Assembly (NCBI GenBank): GCA_030691265.1
Contig: JAUYET010000110.1
Location: 1-49,683, forward strand
DNA length: 49,683 bases
Direction of reading: 5' to 3'
Origin: Pseudomonadota bacterium
GTDB taxonomy: Bacteria > Pseudomonadota > Gammaproteobacteria > Burkholderiales > Thiobacillaceae
The position numbers and the translations under genes are program-made. The notes below the pieces were generated by a model. That model was not told where the DNA came from, made no database searches, and saw only the letters and a program-made list of their open reading frames with translations. Positions 9,641 to 46,169 of the stretch are shown here, in pieces; position 1 is the first letter of the stretch, and the number at the start of each line of letters is the position of its first letter.

Positions 9641-9699
9641 CGTAGGGTGCGCCGCGCGCACCGATGCAACGGTCAATGGTGCGCATGGCGCACCCTACG
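9641..9699. repeat. REPIN-type palindrome, family A, between gnd and zwf
   Basis: Inverted pair with GTAGGGTGCGC at the left and GCGCACCCTAC at the right; each half is itself a hairpin above a GTAG foot. It sits between gnd and zwf, 18 bp upstream of the zwf start, and would be transcribed in both. Confidence 0.9.
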
Positions 9700-14901: not shown

Positions 14902-14974
14902 GTAGGGTGGATAAGCGAAGCCCCTCCAACAAAGGCGGCGGTGATGGTGGATGCGCTACGCTTATCCACCCTAC
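14902..14974. repeat. REPIN-type palindrome, family F
   Basis: GTAGGGTGGATAAGCG at the left and CGCTTATCCACCCTAC at the right. The right half forms the canonical GTAG-foot hairpin (GGTGGAT...ATCCACC); the left half is degraded internally. It lies between potA and the toxin-antitoxin pair. Confidence 0.85.
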
Positions 14975-16518: not shown

Positions 16519-17610
16519 ATGAAATGGGTAGGGTGCGCCATGCGCACTGTTTTCCGATGTGCGCACGGCGCACCCTACCTGCTGCTGCTGGGCCTCCCCG
16601 CCCAGGCCGATACCCTTTATCTCTACAACTGGAACAACTACATCTCCGCCGCCACCGTCGCCCGCTTCGAGGCGCAATGCGCTTGCCGCATAGTGCAGGA
16701 CTATTACGCCGACAACGAGGAAATGCTGGCCAAGCTGGCGGCGGGCGCATCCGGCTACGACCTGATCGTGCCAACCGGCAACGCCGTGGAAGCGCTGCTG
16801 CGCTCGAACCAGTTGCGGCCGCTGGACAAGGCGCGCCTGGCCAATCTGAAGAACATCAAGCCGGAATTCCTCAACGCCTTCTTCGATCCCGGCAACCGCT
16901 ATTCGGTGCCTTACGCCTACACGGTGACGCTGCTCGGCTACAACGTCGAGAAGCTGCGCGCGCTGAATCTGCCGAGCGACACCTGGGCGCTGATCTTCGA
17001 GCCGCGTTACCTTGTGAAGCTCAAGGGTCGGGTGACGGTGCTGGATTCGCAACGCGAACTGATGGCCGCGGCGATGCGCTACCTGGGCTATTCGGCGAAC
17101 GACACCGACGAAGCGAAATGGCAACGGGCGCGCGACCTGATCCTGCGCGCCAAGCCGTACTGGGCGGCGTTCAACGCATCGAGCTACATCAAGGAACTGA
17201 CCGTAGGCAACATCTGGCTGGCGCACGGCTATTCCAGCGACATGTTCCAGGCCCGCGCCGATGCCGAAAAGGCCGGCCGGCCGTTCCACATCGGCTATTC
17301 GATCCCCAAGGAAGGCGCGGTGCTGGCGCTCGATTCGATGGTGTTGCACAAGACCGGCCGCCAGCCGGAACTTGCGCTGCGTTTCATCGACTTCATGCTG
17401 GAAGGGCCGAACTCGGCCGAACTGACCAACCTGATCGGCTCCGGCAACCCGAACCGCGCAGCCATGCGCCACATCGCCCCGGAAATCGCCGGCAACCCCG
17501 CCGTCTTCCCCGCGGCCACCGACACCAAGCGCCTGGAAATGCTGCGCGACCTGGACCGCAAGCAGCGCCGCGTACTGAACCGCATCTGGACGGAAATCAA
17601 ACTGCGCTGA
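16519..17610 (+). CDS. potD: spermidine/putrescine-type periplasmic binding protein, REPIN in signal peptide
   Basis: 363 residues from ATG at 16519, preceded by AAGGGGGG. The mature protein begins after PAQA with DTLYLYNWNNYISAATVARF, the PotD/PotF opening, and continues through YDLIVPTGNAVEAL, YSVPYAYTVTLLGYN and FHIGYSIPKEGAVLALDSM. It would bind polyamines in the periplasm and deliver them to PotB/PotA. The signal peptide is unusual: residues 4-20 are encoded by a family A palindromic element, reading VGCAMRT...CAHGAPY, followed by a short hydrophobic run LLLLGLPAQA. An internal ATG at 16540, inside the element, is an alternative start. It ends 27 bp from the convergent ycaO. Confidence 0.88.
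   Translation: MKWVGCAMRTVFRCAHGAPYLLLLGLPAQADTLYLYNWNNYISAATVARFEAQCACRIVQDYYADNEEMLAKLAAGASGYDLIVPTGNAVEALLRSNQLRPLDKARLANLKNIKPEFLNAFFDPGNRYSVPYAYTVTLLGYNVEKLRALNLPSDTWALIFEPRYLVKLKGRVTVLDSQRELMAAAMRYLGYSANDTDEAKWQRARDLILRAKPYWAAFNASSYIKELTVGNIWLAHGYSSDMFQARADAEKAGRPFHIGYSIPKEGAVLALDSMVLHKTGRQPELALRFIDFMLEGPNSAELTNLIGSGNPNRAAMRHIAPEIAGNPAVFPAATDTKRLEMLRDLDRKQRRVLNRIWTEIKLR
16528..16578. repeat. REPIN-type palindrome, family A, inside the potD signal-peptide region
   Basis: GTAGGGTGCGCCATGCGCAC at the left and GTGCGCACGGCGCACCCTAC at the right, 51 bp, wholly within coding sequence. GTA is in frame (Val4 of PotD). Confidence 0.92.
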
Positions 17611-19381: not shown

Positions 19382-19437
19382 GTAGGGTGCGCCGTGCGCA
19401 CCATGACACGTTAAATGGTGCGCACGGCGCACCCTAC
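19382..19437. repeat. REPIN-type palindrome, family A, upstream of ycaO
   Basis: GTAGGGTGCGCCGTGCGCAC at the left and its complement at the right, 56 bp, 19 bp upstream of the ycaO start in the ycaO/selO divergent region. Confidence 0.92.
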
Positions 19438-21003: not shown

Positions 21004-21321
21004 ACGCGCACGGGCGGTCTCCAGTCAACTCAACCGTGAAACCGCGATTCGGCGAGAAGCAGAACAATCCGTCATCTGCCCATCAAGGATATGAAAAACC
21101 GGCTCTCGGATTAATTTGCCTGCCGCGAACAAGCGCCGCGCCGGGAATCTGCTGAACCGCGCTCCGGTTTTCTTGCCGAGGCGGCACGAAACGCCATGCG
21201 GTAGGGCGTGCTGCCGGGTGGAATTCGAGCCTGGAACATTTTTTGTGGAAGCGCTCGTAGGTGCGAATTTATTCGCACCGAAGTCCTTGATTGTGCGAAT
21301 AAATGCGCACCTACGCGCGCT
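21004..21321. other. intergenic stretch with one REPIN
   Basis: 318 bases between convergent selO and manC. Apart from the family E palindrome at 21256-21315, immediately after the manC stop, I see no gene, promoter or clear T-tailed terminator. Confidence 0.6.
21256..21315. repeat. REPIN-type palindrome, family E, downstream of manC
   Basis: CGTAGGTGCGAATTTATTCG at the left and the complementary half ending GCGCACCTACG at the right. Each half is a GTAG foot plus a GTGCGAAT/ATTCGCAC hairpin. It begins 6 bp beyond the manC stop and may act as its 3' stabiliser or terminator. Confidence 0.9.
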
Positions 21322-22764: not shown

Positions 22765-22840
22765 GTAGGTTGGGCAAAGCGCAGCGTGCCCAACATCGAC
22801 GCGTGAAATGTTGGGCACGCTGCGCTTTGCCCAACCTACG
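22765..22840. repeat. REPIN-type palindrome, family B, between the CYTH-CHAD gene and manC
   Basis: GTAGGTTGGGCAAAGCGCAG at the left and its near-exact complement at the right, 76 bp, upstream of manC. Each half is a GTTGGGC/GCCCAAC hairpin above a GTAG foot. Confidence 0.93.
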
Positions 22841-29227: not shown

Positions 29228-29306
29228 CGTAGGATGCGGTGAGGTACGAACCGCATCACCCGACGCGACCGTGGGTGATGCGGTTCGCAAGCTCACCGCA
29301 TCCTAC
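29228..29306. repeat. REPIN-type palindrome, family C, between ppx and the chemoreceptor gene
   Basis: GTAGGATGCGGTGAGGTACG at the left and GCTCACCGCATCCTAC at the right. Each half is a GATGCGGT/ACCGCATC hairpin on a GTAG foot. Preceded by CCGTAGC repeats. Confidence 0.9.
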
Positions 29307-31561: not shown

Positions 31562-31646
31562 CGTAGGTTGGGCAAAGCGCAGCGTGCCCAACATCGCAAC
31601 CTCCGAGTGTGAAATGTTGGGCACGCTTCGCTTTGCCCAACCTACG
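31562..31646. repeat. REPIN-type palindrome, family B
   Basis: CGTAGGTTGGGCAAAGCG at the left and CGCTTTGCCCAACCTACG at the right, 85 bp, with a central spacer (CGCAACCTCCGAG) shared with the copy at 35352-35436. Confidence 0.92.
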
Positions 31647-34048: not shown

Positions 34049-34123
34049 GTAGGTTGGGCAAAGCGCAGCGTGCCCAACATCGGCGCGTGAAATGTTGGGC
34101 ACGCTGCGCTTTGCCCAACCTAC
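34049..34123. repeat. REPIN-type palindrome, family B, between ovoA and ovoB
   Basis: GTAGGTTGGGCAAAGCGCAG at the left and the complement ending GCCCAACCTAC at the right, 75 bp. It lies in the ovoA-ovoB gap and ends 20 bp before the second start codon. Confidence 0.93.
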
Positions 34124-35351: not shown

Positions 35352-35436
35352 CGTAGGTTGGGCAAAGCGCAGCGTGCCCAACATCGCAACCTCCGAGCGT
35401 GAAATGTTGGGCACGCTGCGCTTTGCCCAACCTACG
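35352..35436. repeat. REPIN-type palindrome, family B, downstream of ovoB
   Basis: CGTAGGTTGGGCAAAGCG at the left and CGCTTTGCCCAACCTACG at the right, 85 bp, 3 bp after the ovoB stop; nearly identical to 31562-31646. May serve as the 3' structure of the ovo transcript. Confidence 0.93.
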
Positions 35437-38460: not shown

Positions 38461-38535
38461 CGTAGGTTGGGCAAAGCGCAGCGTGCCCAACATCGTGGCC
38501 GCTTCGTTGGGCACGCTGCACTTTGCCCAACCTAC
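38461..38535. repeat. REPIN-type palindrome, family B, between flgE and flgF
   Basis: CGTAGGTTGGGCAAAGCG at the left, GCCCAACCTAC at the right (with GCTGCACTTTG, one change from the usual GCTGCGCTTTG), 75 bp, beginning 17 bp after the flgE stop and ending 19 bp before flgF. Confidence 0.92.
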
Positions 38536-39377: not shown

Positions 39378-39455
39378 CGTAGGGCGGAAAAGCGCCGCGC
39401 CTACCGCCAACGCTCGGTGCATTCGGCGGAAGGCGATGCGCTTTTCCGCCCTACG
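39378..39455. repeat. REPIN-type palindrome, family D, between flgF and flgG
   Basis: CGTAGGGCGGAAAAGCGC at the left and GCGCTTTTCCGCCCTACG at the right, 78 bp. Only copy of this core in the window; immediately adjoins the family C half. Confidence 0.9.
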
Positions 39456-40284: not shown

Positions 40285-41022
40285 ATGAGCCGATTCAATC
40301 CTGATCCCGTAGGGTGCGCCATGCGCACCGATTCACGTCAATGGTGCGCATGGCGCACCCTACTTATCGCCGCTGTTTTGCTCACCGGCTGCGCGATACC
40401 GCCGTCCACCGCGATCAAACAGCCGCTCAGCGTGCGGCCGGAAGCGGTTGCCGTAGCGCCCGTCAACAACGGCGCCATCTTTCAGCCCGCGCCCAGCCAG
40501 GCGCGACCCGGCGCGAGTCTGTTCGAGGACCGCAAGGCGCGTTATGTCGGCGATACCTTGACGGTCAATCTGGTGGAAAAAACCGAGGCCAAGCGCAAAT
40601 CGGAAACCACGGACGAGCGCAAGGCGAATGCTTCGTTGAATATTCCCGCGCCGACCATCCTGGGCACCACCACCGGCATCGGCGCGACCGCCTGGGCGCC
40701 TGCAAGCAGCAGCAAGCAGGAGCTGAAGGACAACGAGAGCAACTCCAACAGCTTCACCGGTTCGATCACCGTCACCGTGGTGGAGGTGCTGCCGAACGGC
40801 CATCTGGTCGTGGCCGGCGAGAAGCAGGTGGCGATCAACAGCGATACCGAATACATCCGCCTGGCCGGCGTGGTGAATCCGAACCAGATCACCAGCGCCA
40901 ACAGCATCAATTCGACCCAACTGGCGAATGCGCAGTTCGAGTCGAAGAACACCCAGAGCATGGATGTCGCGCAGGTCGGCAGCATGTTGGCGCGCTTTTT
41001 CCTGACCGTTCTGCCGTTCTAG
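40285..41022 (+). CDS. flgH: flagellar L-ring lipoprotein FlgH with REPIN in signal peptide
   Basis: 245 residues from ATG at 40285, preceded by GGAG 8 bases upstream. Lipobox LLTGC gives lipid-modified Cys36 in the outer membrane. The mature part has SLFEDRKARYVGDTLTVNLV, ATAWAPASSSKQEL, GSITVTVVEVLPNGHLVVAGEK and IRLAGVVNPNQI, all FlgH hallmarks. The signal peptide is abnormally long because residues 9-27 (VGCAMRTDSRQWCAWRTL) are encoded by a family A palindrome; the hydrophobic core IAAVLL follows. Two extra Cys (11 and 21) come from it. An ATG at 40321 within the element is an alternative start giving a 24-residue signal. Confidence 0.95.
   Translation: MSRFNPDPVGCAMRTDSRQWCAWRTLLIAAVLLTGCAIPPSTAIKQPLSVRPEAVAVAPVNNGAIFQPAPSQARPGASLFEDRKARYVGDTLTVNLVEKTEAKRKSETTDERKANASLNIPAPTILGTTTGIGATAWAPASSSKQELKDNESNSNSFTGSITVTVVEVLPNGHLVVAGEKQVAINSDTEYIRLAGVVNPNQITSANSINSTQLANAQFESKNTQSMDVAQVGSMLARFFLTVLPF
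40309..40363. repeat. REPIN-type palindrome, family A, inside the flgH signal-peptide region
   Basis: GTAGGGTGCGCCATGCGCAC at the left and its complement at the right, 55 bp, wholly coding. GTA is in frame (Val9). Confidence 0.93.
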
Positions 41023-41031
41023 GCGCGTGAC

Positions 41032-42327
41032 ATGACAAAAACCGTTAATACCGCTTGCGTAGGATGTGGTGAGCTTGCGAACCGCATCGCACACTGCTCA
41101 CCGAGGCGATGCGGTTCGTTCCTCACCACATCCTACGGCCTGCTGCTTGTCCAACCGGCCTGGGCCGAGTTCGTAGGTTGGGCAAAGCGAAGCGTGCCCA
41201 ACATTGCGACGGATTGTTGGGCACGCTTCGCTTTGCCCAACCTACGTTGGTTTTCATTAGTCTTTTTCCCCGTTTTTCTGGCGCAGCCGGCCTGGGCCGA
41301 GCGCGTCAAGGACATCGCCACGATCGACGGCGTGCGCTCCAACCCGTTGATCGGATATGGCGTGGTGGTCGGCCTGGACGGCACCGGTGATTCCAGCCAG
41401 GCGCTGACCAACCAGAGCATGGCCACCTTGCTCGGTCAGTTGGGCTTGCAGCAGGATGCCAACGCGATCAAATCGAAGAACGTCGCCGCGGTGACGCTGA
41501 CCGCCGTGATGCCGCCTTACGCGCGGCCCGGCCAGCAACTCGATGTCACCGTCTCCAGTCTCGGCAATGCCAAGAGTCTGCGCGGCGGCACCTTGCTGTT
41601 GAGCCCGCTGAAAGGCGCCGACGGTCAGATTTATGCGCTTGCCCAGGGCAACATGCTGGTCGGCGGCGCGGGCGGGGCCGCGGGTGGTTCCAGCACCCAG
41701 GTCAATCATCTTTCGGCCGGCCGCATTCCCTCGGGGGCGACGGTCGAACGTGGCGTGCCGACGGCATTGGGGCAGGGCGATTTCGTGCATCTGGAACTGC
41801 GCGAAGCCGACTTCACCACCGCCAGTCGTTTGATGGATGCGGTCGATCGCGCTTTCGGCAAGGGTTCGGCCATGGCGCTCGATGGCCGCGTGGTGCGGGT
41901 CAGGGCGCCGGCCGATTCCGGCGCGCGCGTGATGTTTTTGTCCAAGCTGGAAAATCTCAGTCTCAACCCCGGCTTGCCGATGCCGCGCGTGATCATCAAC
42001 CCGCGCACCGGTTCCATCGTCATGAACCAGTTGGTCAGCGTCGAGAAATGCGCCATCGCGCACGGCAATCTGTCCGTCACCATCAGCGCCGACGCGCAGG
42101 TTTCGCAGCCCAACGCGCTGTCCGGCGGCCAGACCGTGGTGACCTCCAATACCGATGTGCAGGTGAAAAGCGACAAGGGCGAGCTGATCGTGCTGTCGTC
42201 TGCCGCCACGCTCAACGACGTCGTGCAGGCGCTCAATGCGGTCGGCGCGACGCCGCAGGATCTGCTCGCCATTCTGCAAGCCATGAAGGCTTCCGGTGCG
42301 TTGAAAGCGGAACTCGAGGTGATTTGA
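41032..42327 (+). CDS. flgI: flagellar P-ring protein FlgI with two REPINs in an extended signal region
   Basis: 431 residues, about 60 longer than usual. Mature FlgI begins near residue 90 with RVKDIATIDGVRSNPLIGYG, then VVGLDGTGDSS, VAAVTLTAVMPPYARPGQQL, LRGGTLLLSPLKGADGQIYA and the ending VVQALNAVGATPQDLLAILQ. The first 89 residues are built from repeats: residues 10-35 derive from a family C element, residues 48-72 from a family B element, and QPAWAE occurs twice (41-46 and 85-90). Each follows a hydrophobic run and each looks like a signal-peptidase site (AWA before E). A shorter product from GTG (codon 55) or TTG (codon 68) inside the second element would also have a good signal peptide. 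Confidence 0.93.
   Translation: MTKTVNTACVGCGELANRIAHCSPRRCGSFLTTSYGLLLVQPAWAEFVGWAKRSVPNIATDCWARFALPNLRWFSLVFFPVFLAQPAWAERVKDIATIDGVRSNPLIGYGVVVGLDGTGDSSQALTNQSMATLLGQLGLQQDANAIKSKNVAAVTLTAVMPPYARPGQQLDVTVSSLGNAKSLRGGTLLLSPLKGADGQIYALAQGNMLVGGAGGAAGGSSTQVNHLSAGRIPSGATVERGVPTALGQGDFVHLELREADFTTASRLMDAVDRAFGKGSAMALDGRVVRVRAPADSGARVMFLSKLENLSLNPGLPMPRVIINPRTGSIVMNQLVSVEKCAIAHGNLSVTISADAQVSQPNALSGGQTVVTSNTDVQVKSDKGELIVLSSAATLNDVVQALNAVGATPQDLLAILQAMKASGALKAELEVI
41058..41137. repeat. REPIN-type palindrome, family C, inside the flgI 5' coding region
   Basis: CGTAGGATGTGGTGAGCTTG at the left and CTCACCACATCCTACG at the right, 80 bp. GTA is in frame (Val10). Confidence 0.92.
41172..41246. repeat. 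REPIN-type palindrome, family B, inside the flgI 5' coding region
   Basis: CGTAGGTTGGGCAAAGCG at the left and CGCTTTGCCCAACCTACG at the right, 75 bp (25 codons). GTA is in frame (Val48). It lies between the two identical 15-bp copies of CCGGCCTGGGCCGAG (41155-41169 and 41287-41301). Confidence 0.93.
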
Positions 42328-43235
42328 TGATCGCCACCGGGGAACGACTTGCAATCGACGTCGCCGATGTCCAGGCGCTGAAGGCGCGGGCGGCTTCCGG
42401 CGACCCGGCAGCGCTGCGTTCGGCGGCGCGCCAGTTCGAGTCGTTGATGATGGCGCAGATGCTGAAAACCATGCGCGAGACCCGTTTCAGCGATGAAGAC
42501 GACCCGATGACCGGCGGCGAAGGCGTCAAGCTGTACCAGGAACTGCTCGACCAGCAATGGGCCTCCAAACTTTCCAGCGGACGCGGCCTGGGTTTCGCCG
42601 AGATGATGGTGAAGGCGATGGAAAGCCGCGGCATGAATGTCGGCGCTGCGCCCGAAGCGACCCCAGTCCCTGGCTGCGTAGGGTGCGCCGTGCGCACCGA
42701 GTCACCCGCAATGGTGCGCACGGCGCACCCTACAACCGAGGCGGCAGCGACCGTTCCCGTTGCGGCGAGCGTCGGCAATCGCAAGCAGGCCTTCCTGGAA
42801 ACCATGCAGCCGCATGCCGAAGCCGCCGCCGAGGCGACCGGCGTGCCGTCGCGTTACATCCTGGCGCATGCGGCGCTGGAGTCCGGCTGGGGCGAGCGCG
42901 AGATTCGCGGCCAGAATGGCGAGGCCAGCCACAATCTGTTCGGCATCAAGGCCGGCCGCAACTGGGACGGCGCATCGGTGCAAACGCTGACCACCGAGTA
43001 CCGCCAGGGCATGCCGATGAAGTTGGCGCAGAACTTCCGCGCCTACGACGACTACAGCGCTGGTTTCACCGATTACGCGAAGGTGTTGAAGTCACGTTAC
43101 GGCGCGGCGCTGGCGGCGGGCGCCGATGGCGATGCATTCGCCAACGGCCTGGCTGCCGGCGGCTATGCCACCGACCCGGCCTATGCCGGCAAATTGAAGG
43201 CGGTCATCGCCAGTGTGGCGATGGCGGGCGGTTAA
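42327..43235 (+). CDS. flgJ: flagellar rod-cap/peptidoglycan hydrolase FlgJ with REPIN in linker
   Basis: 302 residues; the ATG overlaps the flgI stop (TGATGA). The N-terminal rod-binding domain (about 15-110) has LRSAARQFESLMMAQMLKTM, DEDDPMTGGEGVKLYQELLD and SGRGLGFAEMMV. The C-terminal glucosaminidase-type domain (about 155-300) has LAHAALESGWGEREIRGQNG, containing the likely catalytic Glu, and HNLFGIKAGRNW. It opens peptidoglycan for the rod. Residues 118-136 (VGCAVRTESPAMVRTAHPT) in the linker are encoded by a family A palindrome, which adds a Cys pair but leaves both domains intact. Confidence 0.95.
   Translation: MIATGERLAIDVADVQALKARAASGDPAALRSAARQFESLMMAQMLKTMRETRFSDEDDPMTGGEGVKLYQELLDQQWASKLSSGRGLGFAEMMVKAMESRGMNVGAAPEATPVPGCVGCAVRTESPAMVRTAHPTTEAAATVPVAASVGNRKQAFLETMQPHAEAAAEATGVPSRYILAHAALESGWGEREIRGQNGEASHNLFGIKAGRNWDGASVQTLTTEYRQGMPMKLAQNFRAYDDYSAGFTDYAKVLKSRYGAALAAGADGDAFANGLAAGGYATDPAYAGKLKAVIASVAMAGG
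42678..42733. repeat. REPIN-type palindrome, family A, inside the flgJ linker
   Basis: GTAGGGTGCGCCGTGCGCAC at the left and its complement at the right, 56 bp, coding throughout. GTA is in frame (Val118). Confidence 0.93.
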
Positions 43236-43264: not shown

Positions 43265-43323
43265 CGTAGGTGCGAATTCATTCGCACAATCAACGACTTC
43301 TGTGCGAATGAATTCGCACCTAC
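43265..43323. repeat. REPIN-type palindrome, family E, between flgJ and flgK
   Basis: CGTAGGTGCGAATTCATTCG at the left and the complement ending GAATTCGCACCTAC at the right, 59 bp, 29 bp after the flgJ stop. A further 124 bp separate it from flgK; no clear sigma-28 or sigma-54 promoter was found there. Confidence 0.92.
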
Positions 43324-46111: not shown

Positions 46112-46169
46112 CGTAGGGTGCGCCGTGCGCACCATTCGACGTGAATCGGTGCGCACGGCGCACCCTACG
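46112..46169. repeat. REPIN-type palindrome, family A, at the end of the flg operon
   Basis: CGTAGGGTGCGCCGTGCGCA at the left and the complement at the right, 58 bp, between the convergent flgL and FGE-like gene, 3 bp after one stop and 8 bp from the other. Probably a bidirectional 3' structure. Confidence 0.92.

Follow-up and report, generated by a model that had tools for sequence, protein, structure and literature searches.

How does a palindromic repeat come to be read as part of a protein, and at which places in a protein is it retained? The question is raised by a stretch of 49,683 nucleotides (contig JAUYET010000110.1 of assembly GCA_030691265.1; the window) from a bacterium of the Thiobacillaceae, in which five palindromes lie wholly within the coding sequences of potD, flgH, flgI (twice) and flgJ. 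The genome of origin, G000, is a metagenome-assembled genome (MAG) of 2.02 Mb in 117 contigs and is 58% complete. It was compared with the genomes of relatives (G006, G007, G011 and other G-numbers) and with individual loci (L-numbers); the organism is an uncultured betaproteobacterium near Hydrogenophilales, and the closest named FlgI loci, L007–L011, are 82–87% identical to that of the window. The account that we favour, and regard as very probable, is that the palindromes are mobile REPINs (doublets of repetitive extragenic palindromic sequences, REPs, forming hairpins) moved by REP-associated tyrosine transposases (RAYTs), that rare insertions which keep the reading frame survive at tolerant sites, and that these sites are hit repeatedly while older copies decay in frame.

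All five palindromes reported by an earlier, sequence-only reading of the window were present, the flgI coordinates having been one base too wide at each end. They are REPINs, as seen from their paired inverted REPs, their high copy number and the presence of REP-flanked Y1-transposase genes. Each consists of two head-to-head inverted REPs separated by a short loop, with arms that are 75–100% complementary; elements in the window measure 51–83 nt, and their loops vary between copies. The families, A–F, share the GTAG foot and hairpin arm of the GTAG superfamily of REPs, and their REPs start with GTAGGGTGCGC... (A), GTAGGTTGGGC... (B), GTAGGATGYGG... (C), GTAGGGCGGA... (D), GTAGGTGCGAAT... (E) and GTAGGGTGGATAAG... 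(F). The CGTC terminus of Rickettsia elements was not found; the five elements start with GTAG and end with CTAC, ends that the detector itself demands. The first version of this palindrome scorer (ends GTAGG...CCTAC, arms at least 75% complementary) found 18 elements in the window, as did the second version (GTAG...CTAC, at least 77%), which was used for all later counts. With the second version, 40 dinucleotide shuffles of the window gave no element, and a chance origin is thus excluded. A plain pattern search with GTAGGN{10,40}CCTAC returned four short matches and none of the claimed elements, the real loops being longer. A sample of G000 (615,049 bases, 502 genes by a codon-pair caller, about 83% coding), biased since many stretches were picked for containing family-A elements, held 146 elements: 48 of family A, 38 of B, 30 of E, 11 of F, nine of D, four of C and six others.

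Six genes with a Y1_Tnp domain were found in the partial genome, one of them below the Pfam cut-off and another above it only with neighbouring matches. Each gene is flanked left and right by REPs of a single family (E, F, F, GTAGGATGGG, A and D), some of which overlap the 5' extension of the Y1_Tnp open reading frame (ORF). Leaving aside the strict inverted orientation of the two flanking REPs, the loci resemble the REP-RAYT arrangement in the accessible part of PMC2817692. Copies with exact arms numbered 50 for family A and 90 for family B in G000; exact family-B arms reached 224 in G006, 189 in G011 and 51 in G016, and at most eight in the other 19 of 23 genomes. The samples held 146 elements in 615 kb (G000), 47 in 286 kb (G006), 11 in 392 kb (G022), one in 349 kb (G007) and six in 44 kb (G011), the stretches of G022 and G007 having been picked partly to cover known loci and those of G006, a REPIN-rich genome, partly from a listing of family-B copies with its flagellar contig excluded. 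Of the 23 genomes, 17 were found to have Y1_Tnp genes, and the load differs sharply, so the presence of the gene alone does not predict REPIN load. Between G000 and its close relative G007 the density per kb differs more than 80-fold (the G000 sample being biased towards elements), with six and three Y1_Tnp genes, respectively.

The sequence-only reading placed the five elements in frame at sites that tolerate insertion, and both points were borne out. All share one reading frame, GTA-GGx, which is open in PotD, FlgH, FlgI and FlgJ; they occupy signal-peptide regions and the linker of FlgJ, and the mature domains recognised by Pfam lie downstream of or around them. Alignment with relatives gave close orthologues without the element residues, and no orthologue among those compared had the same residues in ordinary DNA, although decayed copies do occur within the family. 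PotD is the cleanest insertion case, with an exact in-frame insertion of 51 nt after codon 3, between MKW and LLLL. The gene begins ATG AAA TGG, followed by the element and CTG CTG CTG, whereas G007 reads ATG CGT TGG TTG CTG TTG behind a closely similar upstream sequence. The site is empty in G007 (MRWLLLIFYV) and G017 (MRWLLLLCLAG), and the element residues were found at the N-terminus of none of 17 PotD-like loci, one of them distant (26% identity). An ORF from the ATG at 16524 was rejected as PotD, being in the wrong frame; the PotD frame starts from the ATG at 16519.

Likewise, the FlgI element residues are absent from the N-termini of the compared orthologues, most of which are ordinary short signal peptides. 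The FlgJ element is wholly internal, between the Rod-binding and glucosaminidase domains (Pfam), and an AlphaFold2 model, for which 36 FlgJ sequences were used, places the insert (residues 118–136) within a stretch, 107–139, where the predicted local distance difference test score (pLDDT) is mostly below 50. Elements in genes of the window's flagellar operon were confined to flgH, flgI and flgJ, with none within flgB–flgG, flgK or flgL; across the scanned flagellar loci the one exception to this control was a weak, chance-like 38-nt match in flgE of L077. The in-gene elements appear to be read as protein segments. The end of the FlgI signal peptide, encoding PAWAE, occurs twice, at 41153–41169 and 41285–41301 (AACCGGCCTGGGCCGAG and AGCCGGCCTGGGCCGAG, 16 of 17 positions identical). 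The two copies flank the second FlgI element and give two cleavage-like motifs; a target-site duplication was considered as the origin of this double signal peptide.

Comparison of the inserts shows at least six sites that appear to have been hit repeatedly across the genus and family, by other REPIN families or by unrelated palindromic repeats. Only GTAG...CTAC elements were found by the detector, and the other classes were assigned by eye from their peptides. Of 29 orthologous loci of family genomes, those of G011, G022, G006 and G017 have detector-found REPINs in the FlgJ linker. Inserts judged by eye to be decayed REPINs occupy the linker of G002 and G016, the close relative G007 has VRPDPVEG, a palindromic repeat of another kind, and G019 and G024 have PLPSGEG-type inserts. 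FlgJ could be read through in 70 of the 80 loci used for the FlgI comparison, and three of these 70 have an intact REPIN, all of them Hydrogenophilales-like loci matching same-genus genomes. The PotD signal peptide contains a REPIN in G029, a PLPSGEG-type insert in G019 and probably G030, and a TTEAQRHR-type insert in G036 and G137; it is empty in others besides G007 and G017. At the matching place of the FlgH signal peptide, G011 has a family-B REPIN read in the other open frame, G006 has the same kind of peptide and G007 is empty.

The same holds for sites outside the window. Over 17 genomes, a loop of a von Willebrand factor A (VWA) protein, which we take to be CbbO-like although Pfam gives VWA only, holds a family-A element in G000, G004 and G002, another REPIN in G011 and PLPSGEG-like inserts, some of them weak, in nine genomes, and it is empty in G007, G013, G018 and G016. 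The CobQ linker has PLPSGEG-type inserts in G000, G007, G016 and G019, an SRAGGNP-type insert in G011 and a family-D remnant in G006, and a second CobQ site has a family-A REPIN in G000, G002 and G011. Leaders of prepilin-like proteins carry REPINs in G000, PLPSGEG-type inserts in G015 and G019, and ARGKEQ-, VAPASLPA- and SAGVLA-type inserts in G016, G022 and G019, respectively, and are short and clean in G012 and G030. Eleven of the inserts were taken for BLAST comparison; inverted ends were recognised in all eleven, through self-match or on visual inspection. The PLPSGEG, SRAGGNP, VAPASLPA and SAGVLA types recur in 5 to 25 compared loci, some of which overlap, and the ARGKEQ type in two loci with several copies in one. 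Among the compared loci, TTEA and VRPEPVEG did not turn up beyond the one orthologous place that each occupies; given their inverted ends, we presume that they too are repeats. With insert states assigned by eye on a 24-genome tree, built from FlgI together with the CbbO-like protein (for seven rows from FlgI alone), the FlgJ linker requires at least six state changes and the CbbO-like loop seven; the FlgH site needs three with an open fork of G006, G011 and G019, two being possible.

Some further observations concern these sites. At the second CobQ site (L152 10412–10459, L248, L253) the 48-nt REPIN of G011 differs from the G000 copy by paired changes on both arms with the frame kept, as if the palindrome had been corrected or replaced while in frame. 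In the prepilin cluster of G016 (L365), an ARGKEQ/LAPCPLPL-type palindromic repeat occurs in the leaders of three adjacent prepilin-like genes. The CbbO-like gene of G000 (L167) contains, at residues GAHGAPYGQPRVGCAVRT, a second, tail-to-tail REP pair found in G000 only when compared with 17 loci from 16 other genomes, and it adjoins, on the shared contig C92, the RAYT gene that has family-A REPs on its two sides (L005).

In-frame decay was followed in EarP: the family-D element of G000 has 16 of 18 arm pairs, its counterpart in G013 is similar with 15, and that of G021 is worn down to eight, all three being in frame; the other EarP loci compared have no such element. FlgJ likewise carries decayed copies in frame, in G016 and G002. 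These worn copies indicate that some REPIN-derived segments outlived their palindromes.

The frequency of such insertions was estimated from the G000 sample, where 101 of the 146 elements are intergenic, 25 lie over a gene edge and 20 are inside a called gene. Eleven of these 20 were accepted as translated: the five of the window and those in EarP (L123), CobQ (L152), an oligopeptide ABC ATPase with two ABC domains (L157), the CbbO-like gene and two prepilin-like genes (L170), of which NCBIfam supports the second only. The others are two C-terminal elements (L125, 5766–5821 and 10144–10219) and seven N-terminal ones where the start may follow the element. By family the accepted cases comprise seven of A, two of B and one each of C and D. 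Families E and F, 41 of the 146 elements, contributed none, though their frames are about as open: in every family two of the three frames are mostly stop-free (less so in C, with only eight strands), and the TAG in the foot shuts the remaining frame in every case, so that a minority of in-gene hits keep the frame. Lengths divisible by three were found in 5/11 accepted elements against 20/126 others (Fisher p 0.029; 5/9 and p 0.011 without the two prepilins), and the only two 48-nt elements among the 50 exact-arm family-A copies are those in CobQ and the CbbO-like gene. Under uniform insertion free of target preference, roughly 600 in-gene hits would be expected for the 126 elements outside, about a fifth of them frame-keeping, and 11 were seen. 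About nine-tenths of frame-keeping insertions thus seem to have been lost, a figure that serves as a guide only, given the biased sample. The 44-kb sample of G011 had none of its six elements in genes. In G022, an in-frame element (L329 4269–4327) stands just before an HMA-like motif of a gene that by eye encodes a metal-transporting ATPase.

The sequence-only reading further proposed that the lineage uses REPINs preferentially in export signals. The preference was borne out only in part: six of the 11 accepted elements of the G000 sample are in leaders, but four of these formed the discovery set, two of them in the one gene flgI, and only two of six cases elsewhere are in leaders. Leaders make up 1.4% of coding sequence (80 of 502 genes with hydrophobic N-termini, 30 codons each), with an upper bound of 8.8% if all N-termini are counted; the binomial tail is 3e-9 and 1.4e-4, respectively, for 6/11, and 0.003 and 0.09 for 2/6. 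Neither of two internal cases in the G006 sample was in a leader, nor was any of three in the G022 sample, one of which was FlgJ. These shares refer to genome samples rather than whole genomes. Linkers and loops are targets besides export leaders, and a modest excess in leaders is possible, explained by the tolerance of leaders and linkers. That the lineage uses the elements implies a benefit, and this part of the claim is not needed: tolerance together with the loss of harmful insertions would account for the pattern.

The sequence of events that we propose starts from REPINs as non-autonomous elements that would be moved in trans by the RAYT (Y1/HUH) transposases of the same genome. They would scatter genome-wide, with most in-gene insertions being purged. 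With two frames usually open and the third shut by the TAG of the GTAG foot, a REPIN may act as a nearly ready-made coding cassette. Survival would be expected where extra residues do little harm, as in the n-region of signal peptides, prepilin leaders, disordered linkers and surface loops, and in related species further REPIN families, as well as palindromic repeats of unrelated type, would strike the same tolerant sites over and over. Subsequent decay of the palindrome with the frame kept would leave lineage-specific protein segments. It has to be asked whether the peptides were instead selected for altering export, assembly or stability. The repeated hits at the same sites and the retention of the EarP segment despite decay are consistent with such selection. 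We nevertheless find it unlikely, as the same site holds unrelated peptides in different species, which points to tolerance rather than to one useful sequence, and as close relatives such as G007 have empty sites. The occurrence of different repeat classes at one site likewise argues for tolerance over targeting by the element, and near-neutral retention is therefore probably the better description.

In vivo translation of the N-terminal elements is probable, and bears on the suggestion that they are untranslated 5' leaders or RNA hairpins controlling translation, with the true starts downstream. Most REPINs of the sample are indeed outside genes or at their edges, such a view was taken for many N-terminal REPs in the accessible text of PMC3733652, and the REPIN-bearing PotD of G029 could start at an ATG past its element. 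Within the window, however, the next in-frame ATG, GTG or TTG follows the PotD element by 38 codons and the second FlgI element by 28, inside the mature protein in both cases, so a downstream start cannot hold for these two, nor for FlgJ, whose element, like those of EarP, CobQ, the CbbO-like protein and the ABC ATPase, is internal. In FlgH, the hydrophobic core that immediately precedes the lipobox contains a TTG, four codons past the element. Furthermore, PotD and the first prepilin (MC... start) share their upstream start with orthologues that have no element. Masking of the ribosome site by the hairpin was unsupported: in folding predictions the ribosome-binding region is at least as open as in G007 (0.45 against 0.42 for potD, 0.54 against 0.41 for flgH). 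Taken as a general explanation, untranslated leaders are quite improbable.

Several findings nevertheless weigh against insertion and translation in individual cases. In-frame ATGs occur within the PotD and FlgH elements, the first third of which could stay untranslated, and the first FlgI element can be bypassed through an in-frame start 19 codons on, within the second. The two prepilins are the least sure of the accepted cases, with in-frame start codons two to four codons past the element; the strict figure for leaders outside the window, where the share was in any case weaker and both cases are prepilins, could therefore be 0/4. The seven N-terminal calls (L125 4431, L132, L138, L148m, L161, L167 13488 and L171) may be 5' leaders. 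The EarP element replaces about 15 native residues and that at the second CobQ site some, neither being a pure insertion, and the available 58% of G000 yielded no RAYT accompanied by REPs of family B or C. Finally, the genome is an incomplete MAG in which repeats can misassemble, and the arms are repeated many times; a joining of intergenic REPIN reads into genes is hardly credible, however, as both flanks continue the same gene in frame, other assemblies carry different repeats at the same sites and the loops differ from copy to copy.

Table 1. REPINs and host genes in the window.
Feature	Position	Strand	Basis
REPIN family A, over 5' end of called gene	9642..9698		palindrome scorer
REPIN family F, intergenic	14902..14974		palindrome scorer
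potD/potF-like periplasmic substrate-binding protein	16519..17610	+	SBP_bac_8; NCBIfam PotF and PotD best, both below cut-off
REPIN family A in potD signal peptide, 51 nt = 17 codons, VGCAMRTVFRCAHGAPY	16528..16578		scorer and orthologues
REPIN family A, over 5' end of called gene	19382..19437		palindrome scorer
REPIN family E, intergenic	21257..21314		palindrome scorer
REPIN family B, over 5' end of called gene	22765..22839		palindrome scorer
REPIN family C, intergenic	29229..29306		palindrome scorer
REPIN family B, intergenic	31563..31645		palindrome scorer
REPIN family B, over 5' end of called gene	34049..34123		palindrome scorer
REPIN family B, intergenic	35353..35435		palindrome scorer
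REPIN family B, between flgE and flgF	38462..38535		palindrome scorer
REPIN family D, between flgF and flgG	39379..39454		palindrome scorer
flgH, L-ring lipoprotein, lipobox LLTGC intact	40285..41022	+	Pfam
REPIN family A in FlgH lipoprotein signal peptide, 55 nt	40309..40363		scorer and orthologues
flgI, P-ring protein, mature start ERVKDIAT at 41299	41032..42327	+	Pfam
REPIN family C, first element, FlgI N-terminus, 78 nt	41059..41136		palindrome scorer
REPIN family B, second element, FlgI N-terminus, 73 nt, upstream of stronger signal peptide core	41173..41245		scorer
flgJ, rod-cap/peptidoglycan hydrolase	42327..43235	+	Pfam
REPIN family A in FlgJ inter-domain linker, 56 nt, residues 118-136	42678..42733		scorer
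REPIN family E, between flgJ and flgK	43266..43323		palindrome scorer
REPIN family A, after flgL	46113..46168		palindrome scorer

The sequence-only reading considered in-frame palindromes to be established mainly in Rickettsia. This has to be corrected, as intragenic GTAG REPs and REP dimers in several species were catalogued in 2013 by Di Nocera and co-workers (PMC3733652). The accessible part of that study describes translated segments of 20–30 residues in linkers and at N-termini, a gene with two insertions and a single same-site case, with different REPs at about the same recB site of two Xanthomonas; it suggests that linkers are tolerant and that N-terminal intragenic REPs may be misannotated. 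Its emphasis is on genes of DNA synthesis and repair, and the words 'flagell', 'secreted', 'periplasm', 'leader peptide' and 'signal peptide' do not occur in the main text, although the supplementary table of target genes may hold such cases. Compared with what is accessible there, the present material adds orthologous sites that are empty, recurrence at six or more sites in the genus and family, and the mixing with non-GTAG palindromic repeats. The Rickettsia palindromic elements, as described in parts of PMC3733652 and PMC10969869, are likewise short in-frame palindromes tolerated in many genes. They are CGTC-type (PMC3733652), whereas those reported here are GTAG-type and occur with RAYT genes bearing matching REPs; in its accessible portion PMC10969869 reviews in-frame palindromes and characterises their frequency in Rickettsia as unusual. 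In-frame fusions of small mobile repeats of the ERIC (enterobacterial repetitive intergenic consensus) type were also reported, one of which lies in a predicted signal peptide (Delihas 2007, PMC2759123). According to the accessible text these RU/ERIC repeats differ in being 103–168 bp long, in forming C-terminal fusions with none within conserved domains and in having no REP/RAYT system. REPINs are treated as extragenic populations in the accessible part of PMC8049555. A literature search of incomplete coverage, supplements excluded, gave no report of orthologous peptide sites serially colonised by unrelated palindromes, and a further search on repeat-encoded peptides and same-site REP insertion found nothing, most subscription journals being outside its coverage. 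Intragenic GTAG REPs are thus already known; what is new is the same-site recurrence in relatives, with an unusually clear comparative record.

What had been an anecdotal list of intragenic REPs becomes a comparative system, in which an orthologous site can be seen empty, freshly hit, hit by another class of repeat and decayed in frame. It makes testable how frequently mobile palindromes extend a protein while its gene survives, and whether the added sequence ever gains a function. A more far-reaching proposition, plausible but tentative, is that a few peptide sites are genus-wide landing pads rewritten by at least five unrelated classes of palindromes, that mobile palindromes may be one of the leading sources from which the exported and modular proteins of this lineage gain new coding sequence, and that some of this may later be exapted. 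For annotation there is the warning that N-terminal repeats in such genomes can be real coding sequence, and for the proteins themselves the recurrent sites provide natural insertion-tolerance maps of signal peptides and linkers.

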